Source of the DNA: Streptomyces sp. ADI95-17
GTDB taxonomy: Bacteria; Actinomycetota; Actinomycetes; Streptomycetales; Streptomycetaceae
Direction of reading: 5' to 3'
NCBI RefSeq assembly: GCF_003846175.1
Contig: NZ_ML123048.1
Location: 630,962-694,961 of the forward strand
DNA length: 64,000 nt
Under the pieces are notes generated by a model that had not been told where the DNA came from, made no database searches, and saw nothing but the letters and a program-made list of their open reading frames with translations. The translations under genes were made by a program, and so were the position numbers. Of the stretch, positions 49,173-62,014 are shown piece after piece; the stretch's first letter is position 1, and each line of letters opens with the position of its first letter.

Positions 49173-50147
49173 GTGACGATCACCGCTCCCCACCTCGGCA
49201 GCCCGAAGGCGTGGACCGACGCCCAGCTGCTGTACGCCCTGGAAGAGGTGGTGGAGAAGGAGCTCAACCGCCATCTCAAGGTCGCCAAGGACTGGATGCC
49301 CCACGAGTACGTGCCGTTCTCCGACGGACGGAACTTCCCCGGCGTGTTCGAGGACGGTGAGGCCTGGCAGGCCGACCAGTCCAAGGTCACCGACATCGGC
49401 AAGATCGCCCTGGTGGTGAACCTGCTGACCGAGGACAACCTCCCGAGCTACCACCACGAGATCGCCTCCCTCTTCGGCCGTGACGGCGCCTGGGGCACCT
49501 GGGTGCACCGCTGGACCGCCGAGGAGGGCCGGCACGGCATCGTGATGCGGGACTACCTGCTCACCTCGCGGGCCGTCGACCCGGACAAGCTGGAGCAGTT
49601 CCGGATGGCGCACATGGCGGAGGGCTTCGAGTCGGACAACCGGCACTCGATGCTGCACTCCGTGGCGTACGTCGCGTTCCAGGAGCTGGCCACCCGCGTC
49701 TCGCACCGCAACACCGGCCACCAGTCGGGCGACCCGGTCTGCGACCGCATGCTCGCGCGGATCGCGACCGACGAGAACCTGCACATGGTCTTCTACCGCA
49801 ACCTTCTCGGTGCGGCCTTCGAACTCGCCCCGGACCTGACGATGCAGGCCGTGCGCGATGTCGTCGTCAACTTCCGGATGCCCGGTCACGGCATGCCGGG
49901 CTTCGAGCGCGCCGCCGCGCAGATGGCGATCGGCGAGATCTACAACATGCGCATCCACCACGACGACGTGATCCAGCCCGTGCTGCGCTACCTGAGGGTC
50001 CTCTCCATCGACGGCCTGGGCCCCGAGGGCCTGAAGGCGCAGGAGGAGCTGGGCATGTACATGGGCGGTCTGGACAGCGAGGCGGCGAAGTTCGACGAGA
50101 AGCTGGCCGCCCGCAGGGCACGGATGGCCGCGCGCGCCGGCGCCTGA
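49173..50147 (+). CDS. acyl-ACP desaturase (ferritin-like di-iron)
   Basis: A 324-residue soluble di-iron desaturase that introduces a double bond into acyl-ACP. The two iron-binding motifs are RWTAEEGRHG (EExxH, about 116) and ATDENLHMVF (DExxH, about 199), with further helix ligands in LTEDNLPSYHHE. Membrane segments are absent, as in stearoyl-ACP desaturases. Start is a GTG (49173-49175) with CAGGAG about 5 nt upstream. The palindromes upstream are candidate operators. A bulged hairpin follows the stop. Confidence 0.93.
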   Translation: MTITAPHLGSPKAWTDAQLLYALEEVVEKELNRHLKVAKDWMPHEYVPFSDGRNFPGVFEDGEAWQADQSKVTDIGKIALVVNLLTEDNLPSYHHEIASLFGRDGAWGTWVHRWTAEEGRHGIVMRDYLLTSRAVDPDKLEQFRMAHMAEGFESDNRHSMLHSVAYVAFQELATRVSHRNTGHQSGDPVCDRMLARIATDENLHMVFYRNLLGAAFELAPDLTMQAVRDVVVNFRMPGHGMPGFERAAAQMAIGEIYNMRIHHDDVIQPVLRYLRVLSIDGLGPEGLKAQEELGMYMGGLDSEAAKFDEKLAARRARMAARAGA

Positions 50148-55122: not shown

Positions 55123-56196
55123 TCAGCGGGTGACGCCCAGCGCCGGAAGCACCGTCTCCGCCACCCGGTAGGCCTCCTCCAGCAACGGGTTGCCGGAGAG
55201 GATGAAGGTGTCGACGCCCAGCTCCTCGAACTCCTTGAGGCGCTGGACGACCTGGGCCGTCGAGCCGACGACCGCGGTGCCCGGCCCCGGCCGGAACAGG
55301 CTCATCCCCGGCCACATGTTGGGGTGCGTCTCCAGCTCCCGGGCGTGCGCCGGGACCTTGCCGCCGTGCTGGCGGAACTGGCGCTGCCACCCCACGCCGT
55401 CCTCCCCCGCCCGGTCGCCGAGCTGCCGGGCGTACGTCGCCCCGCTCGTCACATCGAGGAGCCGGTCGGCCGCCGCCCAGGCCTCGTCCTCGGTGTCCCG
55501 GACGATGAGGTGGAGCCGGAGCCCGATCCTGAGCGTGCGGCCGTACGCCGCGGCCCGTGCCCTGACCCGCTCCAGCTTCTCCTTGAGCAGGTGCGGGGGT
55601 TCGCCCCAGGTGAGGAAGACGTCGACGTGCTCGGCCGCCATCTCGATCCCGGGGGCGGACGAGCCGCCGAACCAGAGCGGGATGTGCGATTCCTGGACCG
55701 GCCGCAGCTCCCTGAAGGACGCGCCCGCGTTCTTCAGGTCGTAGAAGCGGCCCTTGTGGTCGAAGACCTCACCCGCCGTGAGCCGCTTCACGATCGACCA
55801 GTACTCGGCGCTCAGCTCGTACCGCTCGTCGTGCTCGACGTGGAGTCCGTACTCCTGGAGCGATTTGGTGGAGCCGTTGACGACGTTGAAGCGGAGCCGG
55901 CCGCCGAAGAGGTGGTCGAAGCTGAGTGCCATCTTGGCGAGCAGGGTGGGCGAGATCAGCCCGGGGTGGACGGCCAGCAGGGGCTTGAACGCGGTGCTGG
56001 TGGAGGTGGCCAGCGCGCTGCCGAGCGGCCACACGTCGTACAGGTCGGTGGCGAGCAGCGCACCGCTGTAGCCGAGGCGTTCGACCGTGCCGGCGAGCTG
56101 GGCGAGGTAGCCGAGGTCGACCGGGCGCCGGCCCTCGGGTTCCCAGGGGTAGGCGCCTTCGCGCGGGATGACGTACCAGAGGACTTCGGTCGCCAT
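55123..56196 (-). CDS. LLM-class FMN-dependent monooxygenase, SsuD-like
   Basis: A 357-residue flavin monooxygenase of the bacterial luciferase family, close to alkanesulfonate monooxygenase SsuD. It uses reduced FMN and oxygen to release sulfite from alkanesulfonates. Characteristic parts are WYVIPREGAYPWEPEGRRPV, FKPLLAVHPGLISPTLLAKM, GRLRFNVVNGSTKSLQEYGL, SHIPLWFGGSSAPGIEMAAE and an Arg-rich region near the C-terminus. ATG 56194-56196 lies 4 bp after the upstream gene; an in-frame start at 56244 is less likely. No flavin reductase gene is seen in the operon. It is the last gene of the operon. Confidence 0.88.
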   Translation of the reverse strand: MATEVLWYVIPREGAYPWEPEGRRPVDLGYLAQLAGTVERLGYSGALLATDLYDVWPLGSALATSTSTAFKPLLAVHPGLISPTLLAKMALSFDHLFGGRLRFNVVNGSTKSLQEYGLHVEHDERYELSAEYWSIVKRLTAGEVFDHKGRFYDLKNAGASFRELRPVQESHIPLWFGGSSAPGIEMAAEHVDVFLTWGEPPHLLKEKLERVRARAAAYGRTLRIGLRLHLIVRDTEDEAWAAADRLLDVTSGATYARQLGDRAGEDGVGWQRQFRQHGGKVPAHARELETHPNMWPGMSLFRPGPGTAVVGSTAQVVQRLKEFEELGVDTFILSGNPLLEEAYRVAETVLPALGVTR

Positions 56197-56200
56197 GTCG

Positions 56201-57106
56201 TCATACCGCCTTGTCCGCGCCGGAGCCGACACCCTCGCCGGCACCGGCGAGGGCGTGGGCCACGGTGACCGGGCGGTCGATGAAGCCGGTGCGGTGGAAG
56301 ATGTCGGCCGCTTCCTGTTGCTCCGCGACGAAGGCGTCGGTGACCGGCTCGATCCGCCACGGCAGGGTGCGCAGCGCGGTCTCCCAGTCGTCGGCGCTTC
56401 CGCCGAGGTCGGCGGCGGCGATCTCGGCCGCCCGGCGGGGATGGGCCGCCGCCCAGTCGTCGGCCCGCTGGAGGGCGCGGGTGAGCGCCTCGACGACCTC
56501 GGGGCGGCTCTCGGCCAGGTCGCGGCGTGCGAAGAAGACGGAGCGGTCGGTGATCACGTCGCCGGTGCGGATCAGGGTGCGCAGTCCGCCGGTGCGGCGG
56601 GCCGCGGCCAGTTGGGCGCCCTGGGCCACCCAGGCGGCGATGGCGCCGGTGCGCAGCAGTTCCTCGCTGTCGTCGGCGCTGCGGACGGCGGTGATGTCGT
56701 CGGCGTAGGAGAGCCCGGCGTCGTCGAGCGCCTTGGCGACGAGGTGGGTCTGCCAGGAGCCGATCGCGAGGTGGACGGTGGCGCCCTTGAGGTCGGCGAC
56801 CGTCCGTACGGGGCTGTCCTCGGGGACCAGGAGCGCGCCGTGTTCGGGGCGCGGGGCGGAGACGGCGGTGTAGACGATGTCGTGGCCGGCGGCCTGGGCG
56901 GTGACCGGCGGGGTGGAGCCGGTGCCGCCGAAGTCGATGACGCCGCGGCTGAGGAGTTCGCCGGTGCGGACGCCGTTGGTGTACGGGTGGAAGACGACGC
57001 TCTCGCCGAGCGGGGCCAGTTCCTCCTGGGCGAGGCCGAGCCGGGTGAGGTGGTACAGGTGGTAGAGGGACGGGTTGCTGCTGTGCACACCGATGGTGAT
57101 GGTCAT
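56201..57106 (-). CDS. SsuA/TauA-like substrate-binding-fold protein without signal peptide
   Basis: A 301-residue protein with the fold of sulfonate/nitrate-type binding proteins (SRGVIDFGGTGSTPPVTAQA, then DLKGATVHLAIGSWQTHLVA and DADDW-like end segments). It starts directly with the first strand (TITIGVHSSNPSLYHLYHLT), so it has neither a signal peptide nor a lipobox and must stay in the cytosol. It also lacks the Cys seen at the matching place in the DszB-like protein of this operon. It may be a cytosolic enzyme or a chaperone for the substrate. Its ATG adjoins the ATPase stop. Confidence 0.78.
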   Translation of the reverse strand: MTITIGVHSSNPSLYHLYHLTRLGLAQEELAPLGESVVFHPYTNGVRTGELLSRGVIDFGGTGSTPPVTAQAAGHDIVYTAVSAPRPEHGALLVPEDSPVRTVADLKGATVHLAIGSWQTHLVAKALDDAGLSYADDITAVRSADDSEELLRTGAIAAWVAQGAQLAAARRTGGLRTLIRTGDVITDRSVFFARRDLAESRPEVVEALTRALQRADDWAAAHPRRAAEIAAADLGGSADDWETALRTLPWRIEPVTDAFVAEQQEAADIFHRTGFIDRPVTVAHALAGAGEGVGSGADKAV

Positions 57107-57862
57107 TCAGATCACTCCGACTTCGGTACGTTCGGGGGCGGTTGAGGGCTGCGGGGTCGTCGCGACCCCGAGGTCGTCGAGGAGGCGTCGGCGCAGCGCT
57201 CCGAAGGCGGGGTCGCCGGGGTCGCGCGGCCGGTCGACGGTGACCGGTTCGTCGGTGACGAGCCGGCCGTCGCGCAGTACGGCGACCCGGTCGGCGAGCC
57301 GTACGGCCTCGTCCACGTCGTGGGTGACGAGGAGGACGGCGGGCCGGTGCTTCCGGCACAGCTCACCCACCAGGTCCTGCATCTTCAGCCGGGTCAGGGC
57401 GTCGAGTGCGGCGAACGGCTCGTCGAGCAGCAGCAGTTCGGGTTCGCGGACCAGGGCGCGGGCGAGGGCGACCCGCTGCGCCTCGCCGCCGGAGAGGGTG
57501 GCGGGCCAGGCGTCGGCGTGCCGTTCGAGACCGACCTCGGCCAGGGCCCGCAGCCCGTGCCCGGAGCGGCCGCGCGGCAGGGCCACCGTCACATTGGCGA
57601 GGACCTTCTTCGACGGTACGAGGCGGGGTTCCTGGAAGACGACGGTACGGGCCTCGGGGACGAGGACCTCTCCGCCGTCGGCTCCGTCGAGTGCGCCCAG
57701 GATGCGCAGCAGGGTCGTCTTGCCGCTGCCGCTCGCGCCGAGCAGGGCGACGAACTCGCCCCGTGCGATGTCGAGCCGGAGGCCGTCGAGCACGGCACGG
57801 TCGCCGAAGACGCGCCGCAGTTCCCTCACGCGTACGGCGGGCCGGGGGGCGGGGTCGGTCAT
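57107..57862 (-). CDS. sulfonate-type ABC transporter ATP-binding protein, SsuB-like
   Basis: A 251-residue ATPase with Walker A GASGSGKTT, signature LSGGEAQR, Walker B LLLLDEPF and the H-loop LLVTHDVDEA. The Q-loop is TVVFQEPRLVP. Size and order are as in SsuB/TauB of the nitrate/sulfonate/taurine family. ATG 57860-57862 overlaps the permease 3' end by 4 bp. It powers uptake with the neighbouring permease. Confidence 0.93.
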   Translation of the reverse strand: MTDPAPRPAVRVRELRRVFGDRAVLDGLRLDIARGEFVALLGASGSGKTTLLRILGALDGADGGEVLVPEARTVVFQEPRLVPSKKVLANVTVALPRGRSGHGLRALAEVGLERHADAWPATLSGGEAQRVALARALVREPELLLLDEPFAALDALTRLKMQDLVGELCRKHRPAVLLVTHDVDEAVRLADRVAVLRDGRLVTDEPVTVDRPRDPGDPAFGALRRRLLDDLGVATTPQPSTAPERTEVGVI

Positions 57863-58689
57863 CGGGTGGCTCCCTGTGTGGTGCGCCAGGGCATCAGTAC
57901 GCGTTCCAGCAGCCGTACGACCATGTCGGCGGTGAGTCCGAGCAGCCCGTAGACGAGGATGCAGACGGCGAGGATGTCGGTGCGGGCGTAGCTCTGTGCC
58001 TGGGACATCAGATATCCGATGCCGGCCGTGGCGTTGATCTCCTCGGCGGCGATCAGGGCGATGACGCTGAGGGTCATGGACAGCCGCAGCCCGGCGAGCA
58101 GGGACGGCAGGGCCCCGGGCAGGACGACTTCGCGTACGAGGGCGAAACGGCCCATGCCGAAGCTGCGCATGGCCTCGACGAGTTTGGGGTCGGTGTTGCG
58201 TACCCCGCTCGATGTCGACACGTACATCGGGAAGGTGGTGGCGACGGCGATCAGAAGGATCTTCGCGGTCTCGTTGATCCCGAACCAGACCATGAACAGG
58301 GGCACCAGGGAGAGGAACGGAATGGTGCGCAGGGTCTGGATGGAGGAGTCGAGGAGTTCGTCGCCGAGGCGGGTGAATCCGGTGGTGATGCCGAGGACGA
58401 GTCCGGCGGCGAGCCCGATGAGGAGGCCGAGTCCGGAGCGGGTGAGGGAGGTGGTGAGTGCGTCGGGCAGCTGCCCGTTGCCCCACAACTCCCCCACCGC
58501 GCGCAGCACTTCACCGGGCGATGCGAGTACGTCGGGGGTGAGGACTCCGGTGGCGGACGCCGCCCACCACAGGACGAGGAGGGCGATGGGGCCGAGTGCC
58601 CGGACGGTGGCGGAGTAGGTGCGGCCGCGGCCCCTGCGCCGTTGCGGGCGGGGCCGGACGAGGCCCTGGTGCGCGGTGGTCCCGCTCAT
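57859..58689 (-). CDS. sulfonate-type ABC transporter permease, SsuC-like
   Basis: A 276-residue inner-membrane permease. It has about six membrane segments after a basic N-terminus. The EAA loop is EAMRSFGMGRFALVREVVLP with GALPSLLAGLRLS following, the contact point with the ATPase. It overlaps the upstream binding-protein gene and the downstream ATPase gene by 4 bp each, so all three are translationally coupled. Confidence 0.92.
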   Translation of the reverse strand: MSGTTAHQGLVRPRPQRRRGRGRTYSATVRALGPIALLVLWWAASATGVLTPDVLASPGEVLRAVGELWGNGQLPDALTTSLTRSGLGLLIGLAAGLVLGITTGFTRLGDELLDSSIQTLRTIPFLSLVPLFMVWFGINETAKILLIAVATTFPMYVSTSSGVRNTDPKLVEAMRSFGMGRFALVREVVLPGALPSLLAGLRLSMTLSVIALIAAEEINATAGIGYLMSQAQSYARTDILAVCILVYGLLGLTADMVVRLLERVLMPWRTTQGATR

Positions 58690-59699
58690 TTCAGCTTCTC
58701 GATGTCGAGGAGGTGGGTGGCGACGTCGACCTTGTCCGGGGTGACCTTCTGCTCGGCGTAGAAGCCGGCGACGTCCTCGAAGCGTTCGATGTCCTGCGGT
58801 CCGATGGCATCGACCGTGCCGCCCTCGCGGGTGAACGCGGTCTGGACCTCCTTCGCCTTTCCGGTGACGGCGGTCGGCCCGACATCGGTGAAGACGTTCA
58901 GATACGCGGCCGGGTCCTGCTTCTCCTTGGCGCTGGCGTCGTGGAGGTACCGGTACAGCGCCTTGACGACCCCGGGGTGCTGCTCGGCGAAGCCGGTGCG
59001 TACGGCGTTGAGGCTGTAGTTGTCGGAGCCGATCGCGGCGCCGTCGGCGACGAAGTGCGCCTTGCCGCTGCCGATCTCGGCCACGGCGTACGTCGCCCAG
59101 ACCGCCCAGGCGTCGACCTTGCCCGCGTTGAACACGGCGGCCGTCTGGTCGGGCCGCAGATAGACCCGCTCGACCTTCTCGGCGGGGATGCCGGCCTTGG
59201 CGAGTGCCTTCAGGAGCAGGTATTCGCCGGTGCCGCCCTGGTTGACGGCGACCTTCTTGCCGACCAGGTCGGCGACCGATCCGATACCGGAGCCGTTCTT
59301 CACGAGGATGCCCTCGCCGGCCGCGTCCGGGTCGACGGCGGTGAAGAACTTGAAGCCGGGGCGCTGGGCGAGCGAGGTGATGCCGGAGGTGATGGAGCCG
59401 GTGGCGATGTCGAGCTGGTTGGCGTTCATCGCCTGGGCGGCCGGGGCGAAGGGTCCGGCGCTTCCGGTCCAGCGCACCTTGGCGCCGGCCTTCGCGAGCG
59501 CCTTGTCGAGGCTGCCGTCCTTCTTGCCGAGGGCGAGCACTCCGGAGTTGCCGGGGTCGGGGATGCGGATCTCGACCGTGCCCCCGGCGCCGGAGCCGCT
59601 GTCGGCCTCGGACGAGCCGCAGGCGGTGAGGGCGAGGAGTGCGGTGGCCGTGAGGAGCGCGGGGGCGGCGGCCGTGCGCAGTGGTCGGGGAAGGTTCAT
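58686..59699 (-). CDS. sulfonate-type ABC transporter substrate-binding lipoprotein, SsuA-like
   Basis: A 337-residue exported lipoprotein. The signal peptide ends in the lipobox LLALTAC with Cys27 as the lipidated residue. The mature part has KVAVNQGGTGEYLLLKALAK and KVDAWAVWATYAVAEIGSGK, matching aliphatic-sulfonate/taurine-type binding proteins. It captures the substrate for the downstream permease and ATPase. ATG 59697-59699. A 14-bp gap separates it from the DszB-like gene upstream. Confidence 0.92.
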   Translation of the reverse strand: MNLPRPLRTAAAPALLTATALLALTACGSSEADSGSGAGGTVEIRIPDPGNSGVLALGKKDGSLDKALAKAGAKVRWTGSAGPFAPAAQAMNANQLDIATGSITSGITSLAQRPGFKFFTAVDPDAAGEGILVKNGSGIGSVADLVGKKVAVNQGGTGEYLLLKALAKAGIPAEKVERVYLRPDQTAAVFNAGKVDAWAVWATYAVAEIGSGKAHFVADGAAIGSDNYSLNAVRTGFAEQHPGVVKALYRYLHDASAKEKQDPAAYLNVFTDVGPTAVTGKAKEVQTAFTREGGTVDAIGPQDIERFEDVAGFYAEQKVTPDKVDVATHLLDIEKLK

Positions 59700-59713
59700 G
59701 GTGTCGGGGGTCC

Positions 59714-60739
59714 TCACAACTCGGGGGCGAAGGCGCGGTGGGCGGGGCGGGAGGCGGCCAGTGCGGTGGCGCGGCGCAGCGGCTCGGGGTCGGCCCAGGC
59801 CGTGATGTCGACGGGTTCGGGCAGGAAGCCGTGGGCGCGCAGCCCGGCCTCCTGCTCGGCGAGCAGGCTCAGTCGGTCCGGGGAGAGACCGGGGTGGAGG
59901 GTGAGATGGGTGCCCGGCCGGTAGGCCCCGGTGACGCCCTCGGCGCCCGCGCCGGTCTCGGCGCCGAGGATCCGGTCGACCTCGGCGGGCTGTTCGGCGG
60001 CCCAGTCGGCGGCCCTGAGCAGGACGGCGAGGAAGCGGTCGACGAGGCCGGGGTGGTCGTCGAGGAGCTGTTGGTGGACGGTGATGGGGCGCGGGGTGCC
60101 GTTGTTGACGCGGAACCGGCGGTCGGCCAGTTCGTCGAGTTCGACGGCGACCTCCGCACCGGCCCGCCGGGCGGCCTCGACGGCCAGGGCGCCCTTCACG
60201 TACACGGCGTCGACGTCGCCGCGCCGCAGCGCCGCCAGCTCGGGACCCCACTGGTCCCGGTGTCCGGCGGCGGGCACGTCGACGAACGTGGCGTCGTCCG
60301 GCCCGAGTCCGGCGGTGGCGAGTGCGCCCTCGAAGCCGCGCAGGGCCATGGCCCGCCAGAAGTCGATGGCAATGTCGTGCACGGGTGCGGCGAGCCGCAG
60401 TCCGCGCAGTGCTTCGACGCCCCGGATCCCGGTGCCGGGACGGACCAGTACGGTCTGCCGCTCCTCGATCCAGGTGAGACCGATCAGCCGGGTCCGCTCC
60501 CCGCGTGAACGGGCCCACAGCGCGGGTACGTTGCCGCCTTCGCGGAACAGGCCCGGCAGGGCGTGGGTGTAGTGGGCGGCCCGGTCGACGCCGGGTGCGG
60601 CGTCCTGGAGGGACCGCACCTCGATTCCGTCGGGGGCGAACTCTTCGGTGAGCCACCGGCGGTCGGCGGCGATGCCGGTCGCGGTGGGTACGGGACAGCG
60701 GGTGAACCAGAGGGTCCGGGGCAGGACGGCATGCGTCAT
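59714..60739 (-). CDS. DszB-like sulfinate desulfinase candidate (binding-protein fold, cytosolic)
   Basis: A 341-residue protein of the binding-protein-like fold with no signal peptide. It resembles DszB, the 2'-hydroxybiphenyl-2-sulfinate desulfinase. The N-terminus TLWFTRCPVPTA matches the DszB stretch with its catalytic Cys. His56 (AAHYTH) and Arg66 (FREGGNVPAL) are 10 residues apart, exactly as His60 and Arg70 in DszB. Cys15 is therefore the likely nucleophile. It would release sulfite from a sulfinate made by a flavin monooxygenase. It is the first structural gene after the leader peptide. Substrate unknown; a simple cytosolic binding protein is the alternative. Confidence 0.72.
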   Translation of the reverse strand: MTHAVLPRTLWFTRCPVPTATGIAADRRWLTEEFAPDGIEVRSLQDAAPGVDRAAHYTHALPGLFREGGNVPALWARSRGERTRLIGLTWIEERQTVLVRPGTGIRGVEALRGLRLAAPVHDIAIDFWRAMALRGFEGALATAGLGPDDATFVDVPAAGHRDQWGPELAALRRGDVDAVYVKGALAVEAARRAGAEVAVELDELADRRFRVNNGTPRPITVHQQLLDDHPGLVDRFLAVLLRAADWAAEQPAEVDRILGAETGAGAEGVTGAYRPGTHLTLHPGLSPDRLSLLAEQEAGLRAHGFLPEPVDITAWADPEPLRRATALAASRPAHRAFAPEL

Positions 60740-60901
60740 GGAGTCTTCCCGAGGGGTCGGCGAAGCGGGGGGCGCGCAGCGGGACGGTGTGGTGGGCGCG
60801 CGGCAGGTACGTCGGGGGTGTGGGACCGCGTACGGCGAAGCGCTCCGGACCGTGTCGGATCGCGGCGGAGTGAGGTGTGAAAGGGGCTGCGGGGGGAGCG
60901 G

Positions 60902-61012
60902 TCAGCGACAGGCGGCGCTGGAGACCCGCGCCAGGTCGATGTGACGGCGCAGCGTCAGGGCGAGCGGGACCGGGGCGGCGTGGGCGGGGGGCGCTGTTCG
61001 GCGGCCGGCCAT
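60902..61012 (-). CDS. sulfur-type leader peptide (HIDL...SSAACR)
   Basis: A 36-residue ORF starting at ATG 61010-61012 with GGGAG 7 nt upstream. Its end, TLRRHIDLARVSSAACR, is the pattern of streptomycete putative leader peptides found before sulfate, sulfonate and cysteine genes, with Cys as the last but one residue. It precedes the DszB-like gene by 162 bp. It probably lets ribosome stalling on the Cys codon raise expression when cysteine is short. I did not find a clear terminator/antiterminator pair in the gap; the RNA just after the stop is C-rich. Confidence 0.8.
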   Translation of the reverse strand: MAGRRTAPPAHAAPVPLALTLRRHIDLARVSSAACR

Positions 61013-61074
61013 GGCACTGCTCCCTTCCGCTCGTCGGTGGTGACGTGGTGCAGACTGCCACGGACCCGGACCGG

Positions 61075-61156
61075 CCCACAACTCGCTTCCCATGATGTGG
61101 GATCGAGCGTGAACGGAGTGTTTCCCGGCCAGGTACCAGTCAGGAACCCGGCCAGG
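61075..61156. promoter_or_regulatory. repeats in the divergent region of the organosulfur operon and the IclR gene
   Basis: CCCACA (61075-61080) and TGTGGG (61096-61101) form an inverted repeat. CCCGGCCAGG occurs twice in direct orientation (61124-61133 and 61147-61156), 23 bp apart, about two helix turns. These are candidate sites for the neighbouring IclR regulator. Confidence 0.45.
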
Positions 61157-61231
61157 AATCCGTACCTTTCAACTCCCGTAATGTGGCAACCGAATGCCCC
61201 CGAGCCCCTGACGAGCGGAGAGTGGACCGAC

Positions 61232-62014
61232 ATGACCGAGGCCGCGGCAGCACGTGCTCCCGGTGGCGCCCAGGCCGTCCGGCGCGCCCTGGACGTGCTG
61301 CACTGCTTCCACGACAACGGCCCCGACCTCAGCGCCTCCGACCTCGCCCGCCGCCTCGGGCTCTCCGCCTCCACGGCGCACCGCCTGGCCCGCACCCTGC
61401 TCGGCGCGGGCTTTCTGGAGCAGGACGCCCGCACCTCCCGCTACCGGCTGGGCCCCGCCGTCACCGAGCTGGGCAGGCTCTCTTACCACCAGCGGGGCCT
61501 GCATCTGGCCGCCCCCGAGCTGACCGATCTCGCCGAACGCACCGGCGCCACGGCCGACCTGGCGCTGCGCAGCGGCCCCCACGCGGTGATCGTGGCGGGC
61601 GGTTCGGTGACGCCGAAGGTGGGGCTGCGCAGACCGCTGCACTCCACCGCGCTGGGCAAGGTCCTGCTGGCCTGGGCCCGGCCGGGCGAGGGCGGGCCCT
61701 CCTCGCTGCCCCCGCTGCCCGCGTTCACCGACCGGACGATCGTCGAACCGGCGGCCCTGGAGGTCGAGTTGGCGAAGGTGCGGTCCGACGCCTACGCGCT
61801 CAACGACGGCGAGTCGGCGCACGGGGTGCGGACCCTGGCGGTCCCGGTCCTGGACGGCGCCGGTCATGCCCGCTTCGCCCTGGCGGTCCGGGCCACCCCG
61901 TCCGTGATCACGGACGCGCGCACCGACTGGTTCCTGTCGCAGGCCCGCTCCTGCGCGCGGGCCCTGGAGGTCCTGCTGCTCTCCCCGGCCGAGCGCCGTC
62001 CGCCGAGGCCCTGA
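61232..62014 (+). CDS. IclR family transcriptional regulator
   Basis: A 260-residue regulator: N-terminal winged HTH (VRRALDVLHCFHDNGPDLSA, then RLGLSASTAHRLARTLLGAG) and C-terminal effector domain (SRYRLGPAVTELGRL, RRPLHSTALGKVLLAW, then DDGES-like NDGESAHGVRTLAVPV). ATG 61232 with GCGGAG 11 nt upstream. It is divergent from the leader peptide and organosulfur operon and is the obvious candidate regulator. Confidence 0.92.
   Translation: MTEAAAARAPGGAQAVRRALDVLHCFHDNGPDLSASDLARRLGLSASTAHRLARTLLGAGFLEQDARTSRYRLGPAVTELGRLSYHQRGLHLAAPELTDLAERTGATADLALRSGPHAVIVAGGSVTPKVGLRRPLHSTALGKVLLAWARPGEGGPSSLPPLPAFTDRTIVEPAALEVELAKVRSDAYALNDGESAHGVRTLAVPVLDGAGHARFALAVRATPSVITDARTDWFLSQARSCARALEVLLLSPAERRPPRP

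Follow-up and report, generated by a model that had tools for sequence, protein, structure and literature searches.

The desulfinase DszB belongs to the 4S (dszABC) system, and its residues Cys27, His60, Arg70 and Gly73 have been named as catalytic, His60 and Arg70 being those that bind the sulfinate (PMC12168087). In Gordonia terrae C-6, bdsABC is described as encoding a desulfinase, an FMNH2 (reduced flavin mononucleotide) monooxygenase and an 'alkanesulfonate monooxygenase', all of them benzothiophene-induced; when DszD was added, extracts of E. coli containing bdsABC converted benzothiophene to o-hydroxystyrene (PMC3868597). In R. qingshengii IGTS8, the SsuA, SsuB, 'SsuA/DszB', SsuD and SsuA products of peg4799-4806 were raised on dibenzothiophene relative to sulfate (PMC8557817). 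Other solutions have been reported. Acinetobacter baylyi oxidises methanesulfinate to the sulfonate and then desulfonates it, with no desulfinase named (PMC13352529), and Gordonia alkanivorans 135 is said to be without DszB, a sulfonate/Ssu route being discussed (PMC11852219). Here we describe an operon from Streptomyces sp. ADI95-17, located in a stretch of 64,000 nucleotides (hereafter the window; contig NZ_ML123048.1, positions 630,962 to 694,961), that very probably takes up an organic sulfur compound and removes its sulfur by means of a DszB relative. A putative cysteine leader peptide is followed by six genes, all on the minus strand of the window from 61012 to 55123.

This operon is a variant of the desulfinase systems already known from Gordonia (bdsABC) and IGTS8 (peg4799-4806). 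Like the 4S and bdsABC operons, it contains a desulfinase; unlike them, it has a single luciferase-like monooxygenase (LLM) in 55123-61012 instead of two monooxygenases, one for S-oxidation and one for C-S cleavage, and its desulfinase is partnered with an SsuD-related enzyme, not with DszA and DszC. The desulfinase, the 'alkanesulfonate monooxygenase' and the sulfonate-type transporter genes have counterparts in Gordonia terrae C-6, where they lie at neighbouring gene numbers and are all benzothiophene-induced (PMC3868597), whereas Gordonia, compared here by its published description, has a second monooxygenase, bdsB. The order of bdsABC, as read from those gene numbers (PMC3868597), resembles that of four loci of our collection (L087, L090, L092 and L093), which carry two LLM monooxygenases of other LLM clades and have an SsuA-like protein as their last member. 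Since these look-alike loci have two such enzymes, the Streptomyces operon is a one-monooxygenase variant of a bdsABC-like layout, with an enzyme of a different clade. The IGTS8 genes resemble the window operon by product names, and their gene numbers suggest a single cluster (PMC8557817). We found no description of a Streptomyces desulfinase operon among the open-access papers listed, nor, as regards a sulfolane route, did we find sulfolane and a desulfinase together there.

A DszB relative with a conserved active site

For the product of 59714-60739, DszB was the sole PDB sequence match at E values up to 1 (2de2, E 1.2e-15; 2de3, 4.5e-14). An AlphaFold model built from a 42-sequence alignment (predicted local distance difference test 90.3, predicted template modelling score 0.89) retrieved DszB first in Foldseek (E 3.8e-21) and SsuA next (1.3e-15). 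With VIA-align, the DszB C27S structure with substrate gave a Z score of 30.9 (2.9 A over 305 residues) and the best structure other than DszB, SsuA 3uif, 26.1; identity to DszB in the structural alignments was 26-28%. In a phylogenetic tree, DszB joined the desulfinase family with 100/100 support, apart from SsuA and from the other binding-protein-fold proteins of the operon, in an analysis flagged for long branches, DszB among them. Like DszB, the protein is without a signal peptide, as judged by inspection: its open reading frame (ORF) runs from the first start after a stop and the first strand comprises residues 9-13. The product of 59714-60739 is therefore a DszB relative, and its closest named relatives are from Streptomyces.

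As function does not follow from a common fold, we examined the active site. C15, H56, R66 and G69 align by sequence with DszB C27, H60, R70 and G73. The initial annotation, made from the sequence alone, had proposed Cys15, His56 and Arg66 as a DszB-type catalytic set and had named the lack of a structural match as grounds for abandoning the idea; DszB is the top structural match, and the three residues align with their DszB counterparts by sequence. The DszB spacing that it also claimed holds for the His-Arg interval, which is equal in the two proteins (10 residues), and fails for the Cys-His interval (41 residues here versus 33 in DszB). We then considered 78 homologues, namely the window protein and 77 from the fetched loci, near-copies included (85 entered, and ORFs of 290 amino acids or fewer were dropped). 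R66, G68 and G69 are present in all 78. C15 and H56 are both kept in 73 and both lost in the same five, which correspond to three losses on the tree; T13, C15 and H56 are the only columns invariant in the other 73 yet altered in all five. Moreover, C15 is the sole cysteine in 70 of the 73, and the five Cys/His-less rows have no cysteine at all. A single cysteine is also found in DszB (stretch 18-359 compared). Such a single conserved residue fits a catalytic cysteine retained against a pressure to shed sulfur amino acids.

Could this protein merely bind a ligand? Its fold is that of a binding protein, SsuA comes second to DszB among the structural matches, databases call it a substrate-binding protein, and five homologues do without Cys and His, all of which would suit an SsuA descendant that binds or senses a ligand in the cytosol without catalysis. 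However, C15 and H56 are lost only jointly and are otherwise invariant, C15 is the one cysteine of a sulfur-depleted protein, the tree places the protein with DszB, and Gordonia bdsA, called a desulfinase, sits in an operon with demonstrated desulfurisation (PMC3868597). We consequently regard a purely binding role as highly improbable. DszB-type catalysis can be predicted with good confidence from homology, which also strongly supports desulfination to sulfite by Cys15, His56 and Arg66.

The five Cys/His-less paralogues (L084:8595, L088:3289, L094:10435, L098:9303 and L099:719) occur alongside intact copies and would be natural non-catalytic versions, perhaps acting as binding proteins or sensors. 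The family thus offers natural negative controls, together with diverse relatives of a slow industrial enzyme.

An inseparable monooxygenase partner

The desulfinase gene was found in 52 of 200 genomes of the host's bacterial family and the monooxygenase gene, counted at E at most 1e-100 (a threshold of our choosing), in 49. All 49 hold both genes, on one strand and 3521-4106 bases apart, and three genomes have the desulfinase only; the Fisher value of 1.5e-43 overstates independence, as the genomes are related. This complete coupling favours two steps of one route and agrees with a sequence in which the monooxygenase supplies the sulfinate. Of the 65 loci fetched with the desulfinase, 34 had the same six-gene order (33 from Streptomycetaceae and one from Sinosporangium), hereafter type A. 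Given this recurrence and the co-location in 49 of 49 genomes, the operon layout is not due to chance.

The monooxygenase, whose start was picked by homology (the frame can also be read from a GTG 48 bases upstream), carries the motifs YPWEPEG and RPGP. It scores 335 bits on TIGR03565, below the SsuD equivalog cut-off of 518. Together with desulfinase-adjoining enzymes from Pseudomonas and Acinetobacter (type B) and one divergent row from Streptomyces violaceus, it forms a clade with 100/100 support, which sits beside E. coli SsuD and MsuD with lower support (85/94). Because this tree sampled loci fetched through the desulfinase, plus references only, the exclusivity of the pairing rests on the 200-genome survey. 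With SsuD and MsuD the window enzyme shares the LLM family and the FMN-site residues H123, R126, Y127 and S177, which are kept in types A and B except that S177 is T in type B; it differs from them by its separate clade and by RPGP in place of RGGA/S.

MsuD holds the sulfonate by W195, R225, R296 and the backbone NH of residue 299 (PMC8234197). By sequence alignment, type A monooxygenases have a proline at position 299, and thus no NH. MsuD Tyr330 is Asn in 34 of the 35 type A rows; L097, which lies outside the type A counts, has Ser. In type B, none of W195, H227 and R296 is retained in any of the 12 rows, near-copies counted, in an alignment that is gapped next to 296. Elsewhere in the genome, beside transporter genes, a second SsuD-type enzyme with an RGGA loop was found (L007). 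As it branches apart from E. coli SsuD, its designation as the genome's SsuD draws solely on the loop motif, and its value as evidence that the window monooxygenase has another role is modest.

A proposed sequential route from sulfone or sulfonate to sulfite

Taking these results together, we propose that the operon would scavenge sulfur from an already oxidised organosulfur compound during sulfur starvation. The compound would be taken up by the SsuABC-type importer formed by the lipoprotein, the permease and the ATPase. In analogy to DszA and BdsC, the LLM monooxygenase would then take the part of DszA and cleave one C-S bond of a sulfone or sulfonate-like substrate to give a sulfinate. It would draw its FMNH2 from a reductase whose gene lies outside the operon, and seven FMN_red matches were indeed found elsewhere in the genome. 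Finally, the desulfinase would free sulfite, with His56 and Arg66 holding the SO2 group and Cys15 as the nucleophile. This 'lower 4S' route, from sulfone or sulfonate to sulfinate and then to sulfite under sulfur starvation, is the reading that we consider somewhat more probable than all others combined.

Several observations weigh against it. The closest solved relatives of the monooxygenase are sulfonatases (SsuD, E 4e-87; MsuD, E 5e-82), and W195, R225 and R296, three of the four direct sulfonate contacts of MsuD, are kept in at least 34 of the 35 type A rows, the odd row being probably a frame-broken ORF of L075. The second SsuD-type enzyme of the genome branches farther from E. coli SsuD than the window's own monooxygenase does. 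No DszC-like oxygenase was found in the operon (55123-61012; the genome beyond was not searched for DszC), so that a sulfone would need a ready-made supply. In the desulfinase, the DszB substrate loop 180-200 is largely missing (19 alignment columns gapped), and DszB Tyr63 and Gln65 are replaced by His and Leu. These last differences make biphenyl sulfinate unlikely as a substrate, and the desulfinase probably acts on a sulfinate other than that of DszB; the missing loop argues against the same substrate, not against DszB chemistry. As for regulation, no terminator-like hairpin was detected between the leader and the gene (60650-61300 scanned), and cysteine-dependent attenuation is to that extent conjectural.

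The kept contacts, the proximity of SsuD and MsuD to the clade and the SsuBC-like transporter in the operon would all be expected if the two enzymes ran parallel chemistries, with the monooxygenase acting as an alkanesulfonatase that frees sulfite and the desulfinase treating sulfinates separately. This is, in substance, what the initial annotation had put forward with its SsuD-like partner, and in that form the proposal is not supported: the enzyme falls short of the SsuD cut-off, forms a clade of its own and has proline in place of the residue whose backbone NH binds sulfonate in MsuD. Three of the four contacts remain, however, and leave the proposal some probability. The change of Tyr330 to Asn, the replacements at W195, H227 and R296 in the desulfinase-paired Pseudomonas/Acinetobacter type and the inseparability of the enzyme pair in 49 of 49 genomes likewise weigh against it. 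We therefore moderately favour the sequential route over two parallel chemistries, which we hold to be rather unlikely. A further possibility is that the enzymes act in sequence, with an unchanged desulfinase step, on a different type of compound (e.g. a sulfonamide, a thioether or a sulfinate ester). In favour of this scheme, the monooxygenase departs from SsuD and MsuD at several residues of the substrate site, and the operon has no S-oxygenase to make a sulfone; it is otherwise without direct support, and sulfones are the substrates of DszA and, as has been proposed, of BdsC (PMC3868597), which leaves it improbable.

The initial annotation had also stated that the operon is not the classical 4S pathway, in agreement with the lack of a DszC-like gene in 55123-61012. 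Going further than the sulfone- or sulfonate-to-sulfite route itself, we tentatively suggest that a self-standing lower half of 4S, devoid of an S-oxygenase, may have evolved in streptomycetes for natural sulfones or sulfonates by combining a Pro-remodelled SsuD relative with a DszB relative, and that the signal-less SsuA-like protein of the operon may be a third cytosolic member (enzyme, carrier or sensor). If true, a pathway without DszC would indicate an unrecognised soil pool of natural sulfones, sulfonates or sulfinates.

Operon organisation and sulfur economy

The features of the locus are listed in Table 1, and their arrangement on one strand is as the initial annotation had described it. 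The five junctions among the six genes are overlaps or gaps of at most 14 bases, so the six genes likely form one transcript; the gap between the leader and the desulfinase gene is 162 bases. The host genome is about 10 Mb. The SsuABC-type character of the transporter, also annotated initially, is borne out in that SsuB and SsuC are the best NCBIfam matches of the ATPase and the permease, although both score below the cut-offs.

Table 1. Features of the desulfinase locus and its divergent neighbour, in window coordinates
Feature	Position	Strand	Basis
Putative Cys leader peptide, 36 aa (amino acids), ending SSAACR (...LRRHIDLARVSSAACR)	60902..61012	-	NF042934
DszB-family sulfinate desulfinase (predicted), 341 aa	59714..60739	-	DszB match, active-site residues
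Lipoprotein, ATP-binding cassette (ABC) importer substrate-binding protein, 337 aa, NMT1 fold	58686..59699	-	PF09084 45.2 bits; lipobox LTAC
ABC permease, SsuC-like, 276 aa	57859..58689	-	PF00528; best NCBIfam SsuC 218.8 bits, cut-off 347
ABC ATPase, SsuB-like, 251 aa	57107..57862	-	PF00005; best NCBIfam SsuB 222.5 bits, cut-off 395
Signal-less SsuA-like binding-protein-fold protein, 301 aa	56201..57106	-	TIGR01728 149 bits, cut-off 163.5
FMN-dependent LLM monooxygenase, SsuD/MsuD-related, 357 aa	55123..56196	-	PF00296 194 bits; TIGR03565 335 bits
Divergent IclR-family regulator	61232..62014	+	PF09339, PF01614 (scan from sixth codon)

The signal-less SsuA-like protein matches SsuA 2x26 at E 2.1e-31. 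In the window, no start codon lies farther upstream in frame, and the absence of a signal peptide is firm for the window only, the ORF of L092 being able to start 64 codons earlier. After its start, the protein has no Cys and no Met, in the window as in all 34 type A loci, and five of six more distant homologues are also Cys/Met-free. The persistence of a Cys/Met-free operon protein in different genera strongly exemplifies sulfur-sparing selection, a mark of sulfur starvation. Homologues of the protein were also observed in Nocardia, Rhodococcus and Tsukamurella loci.

More generally, the four soluble operon proteins contain 0.16% Cys and 0.48% Met, versus 0.76% and 1.64% in 33 other window ORFs (defined with a crude caller). 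Depletion extends to the IclR protein but not to the membrane permease, and two of the five other binding proteins of the genome (L006 and L007) are likewise Cys/Met-poor. As a consequence, the sulfur-sparing signature is not unique to the operon. Sulfur sparing of this kind has been described for the desulfurisation enzymes of IGTS8 (PMC8557817).

The leader peptide scores 29.0 bits on NF042934, above the curated cut-off of 27. Combined with the low Cys and Met content, this points to sulfur starvation, the context that the initial annotation had assumed. In mycobacteria, such leader peptides mediate cysteine-responsive attenuation, and a similar control may operate here. Start codons in relatives were picked as those nearest to the window's start. 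The leader motif was found upstream of the desulfinase at 27 of 69 starts tested (26 Streptomycetaceae loci and the window), all of them in Streptomyces or Embleya; the strict pattern was not found at the other 42, including five of five Kitasatospora loci. When the pattern was relaxed, three Kitasatospora loci showed Cys-rich ends, and L068, L070 and L102 a degenerate form, matches that chance could yield. The spacer between leader and gene aligned poorly among 11 sequences.

Absent from the initial annotation is the divergent IclR-family gene, which adjoins the operon in 33 of the 34 type A loci. A 17-bp direct repeat at 61124-61163 was considered as a candidate IclR operator and was set aside, since a simple pattern derived from it did not match consistently across 20 relatives.

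Distribution of the desulfinase family

A linear plasmid of Streptomyces sp. SAT1 has the same layout, and its DszB-like product is labelled 'ABC transporter substrate-binding protein'. The same label is carried by every annotated rhizobial row among the matches listed (40 of 90 records). As desulfinase records are thus annotated as substrate-binding proteins, desulfinases may lie unnoticed in databases. In a phylum-wide search, the desulfinase was detected in at least 2 of 396 genomes at E 1e-40, a lower bound because five candidates per genome were scored.

Other arrangements were observed around members of the family. In Streptomyces violaceus (L063:8001-14000), the desulfinase and the IclR gene are retained, a divergent LLM, a permease and an ATPase, less similar, lie farther downstream, and the lipoprotein and the signal-less protein have no match. 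In Pseudomonas (L077:6279-13000), a class II aldolase and a type B LLM monooxygenase accompany a desulfinase relative, as does a binding protein of the oligopeptide type; the cluster is divergent to an acyl-CoA-dehydrogenase-like gene and may be a different organosulfur route built around the same desulfinase family. The combination of desulfinase and type B monooxygenase is common to other Pseudomonas and Acinetobacter loci. Homologues of the desulfinase also occur in 90 plasmid records, mostly rhizobial, with 37-41% identity among the rhizobial matches listed. In one of these, Ensifer canadensis pT173c (L115), the homologue is labelled substrate-binding protein; its neighbours are an acyl-CoA-dehydrogenase-like gene and a transporter of the oligopeptide type.

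Finally, outside the operon, a match to Rfam RF01781 (ASdes, a mycobacterial antisense small RNA) was obtained at 49524-49591 on the minus strand of the window (59.1 bits, gathering score 40); it may reflect conserved coding sequence only.

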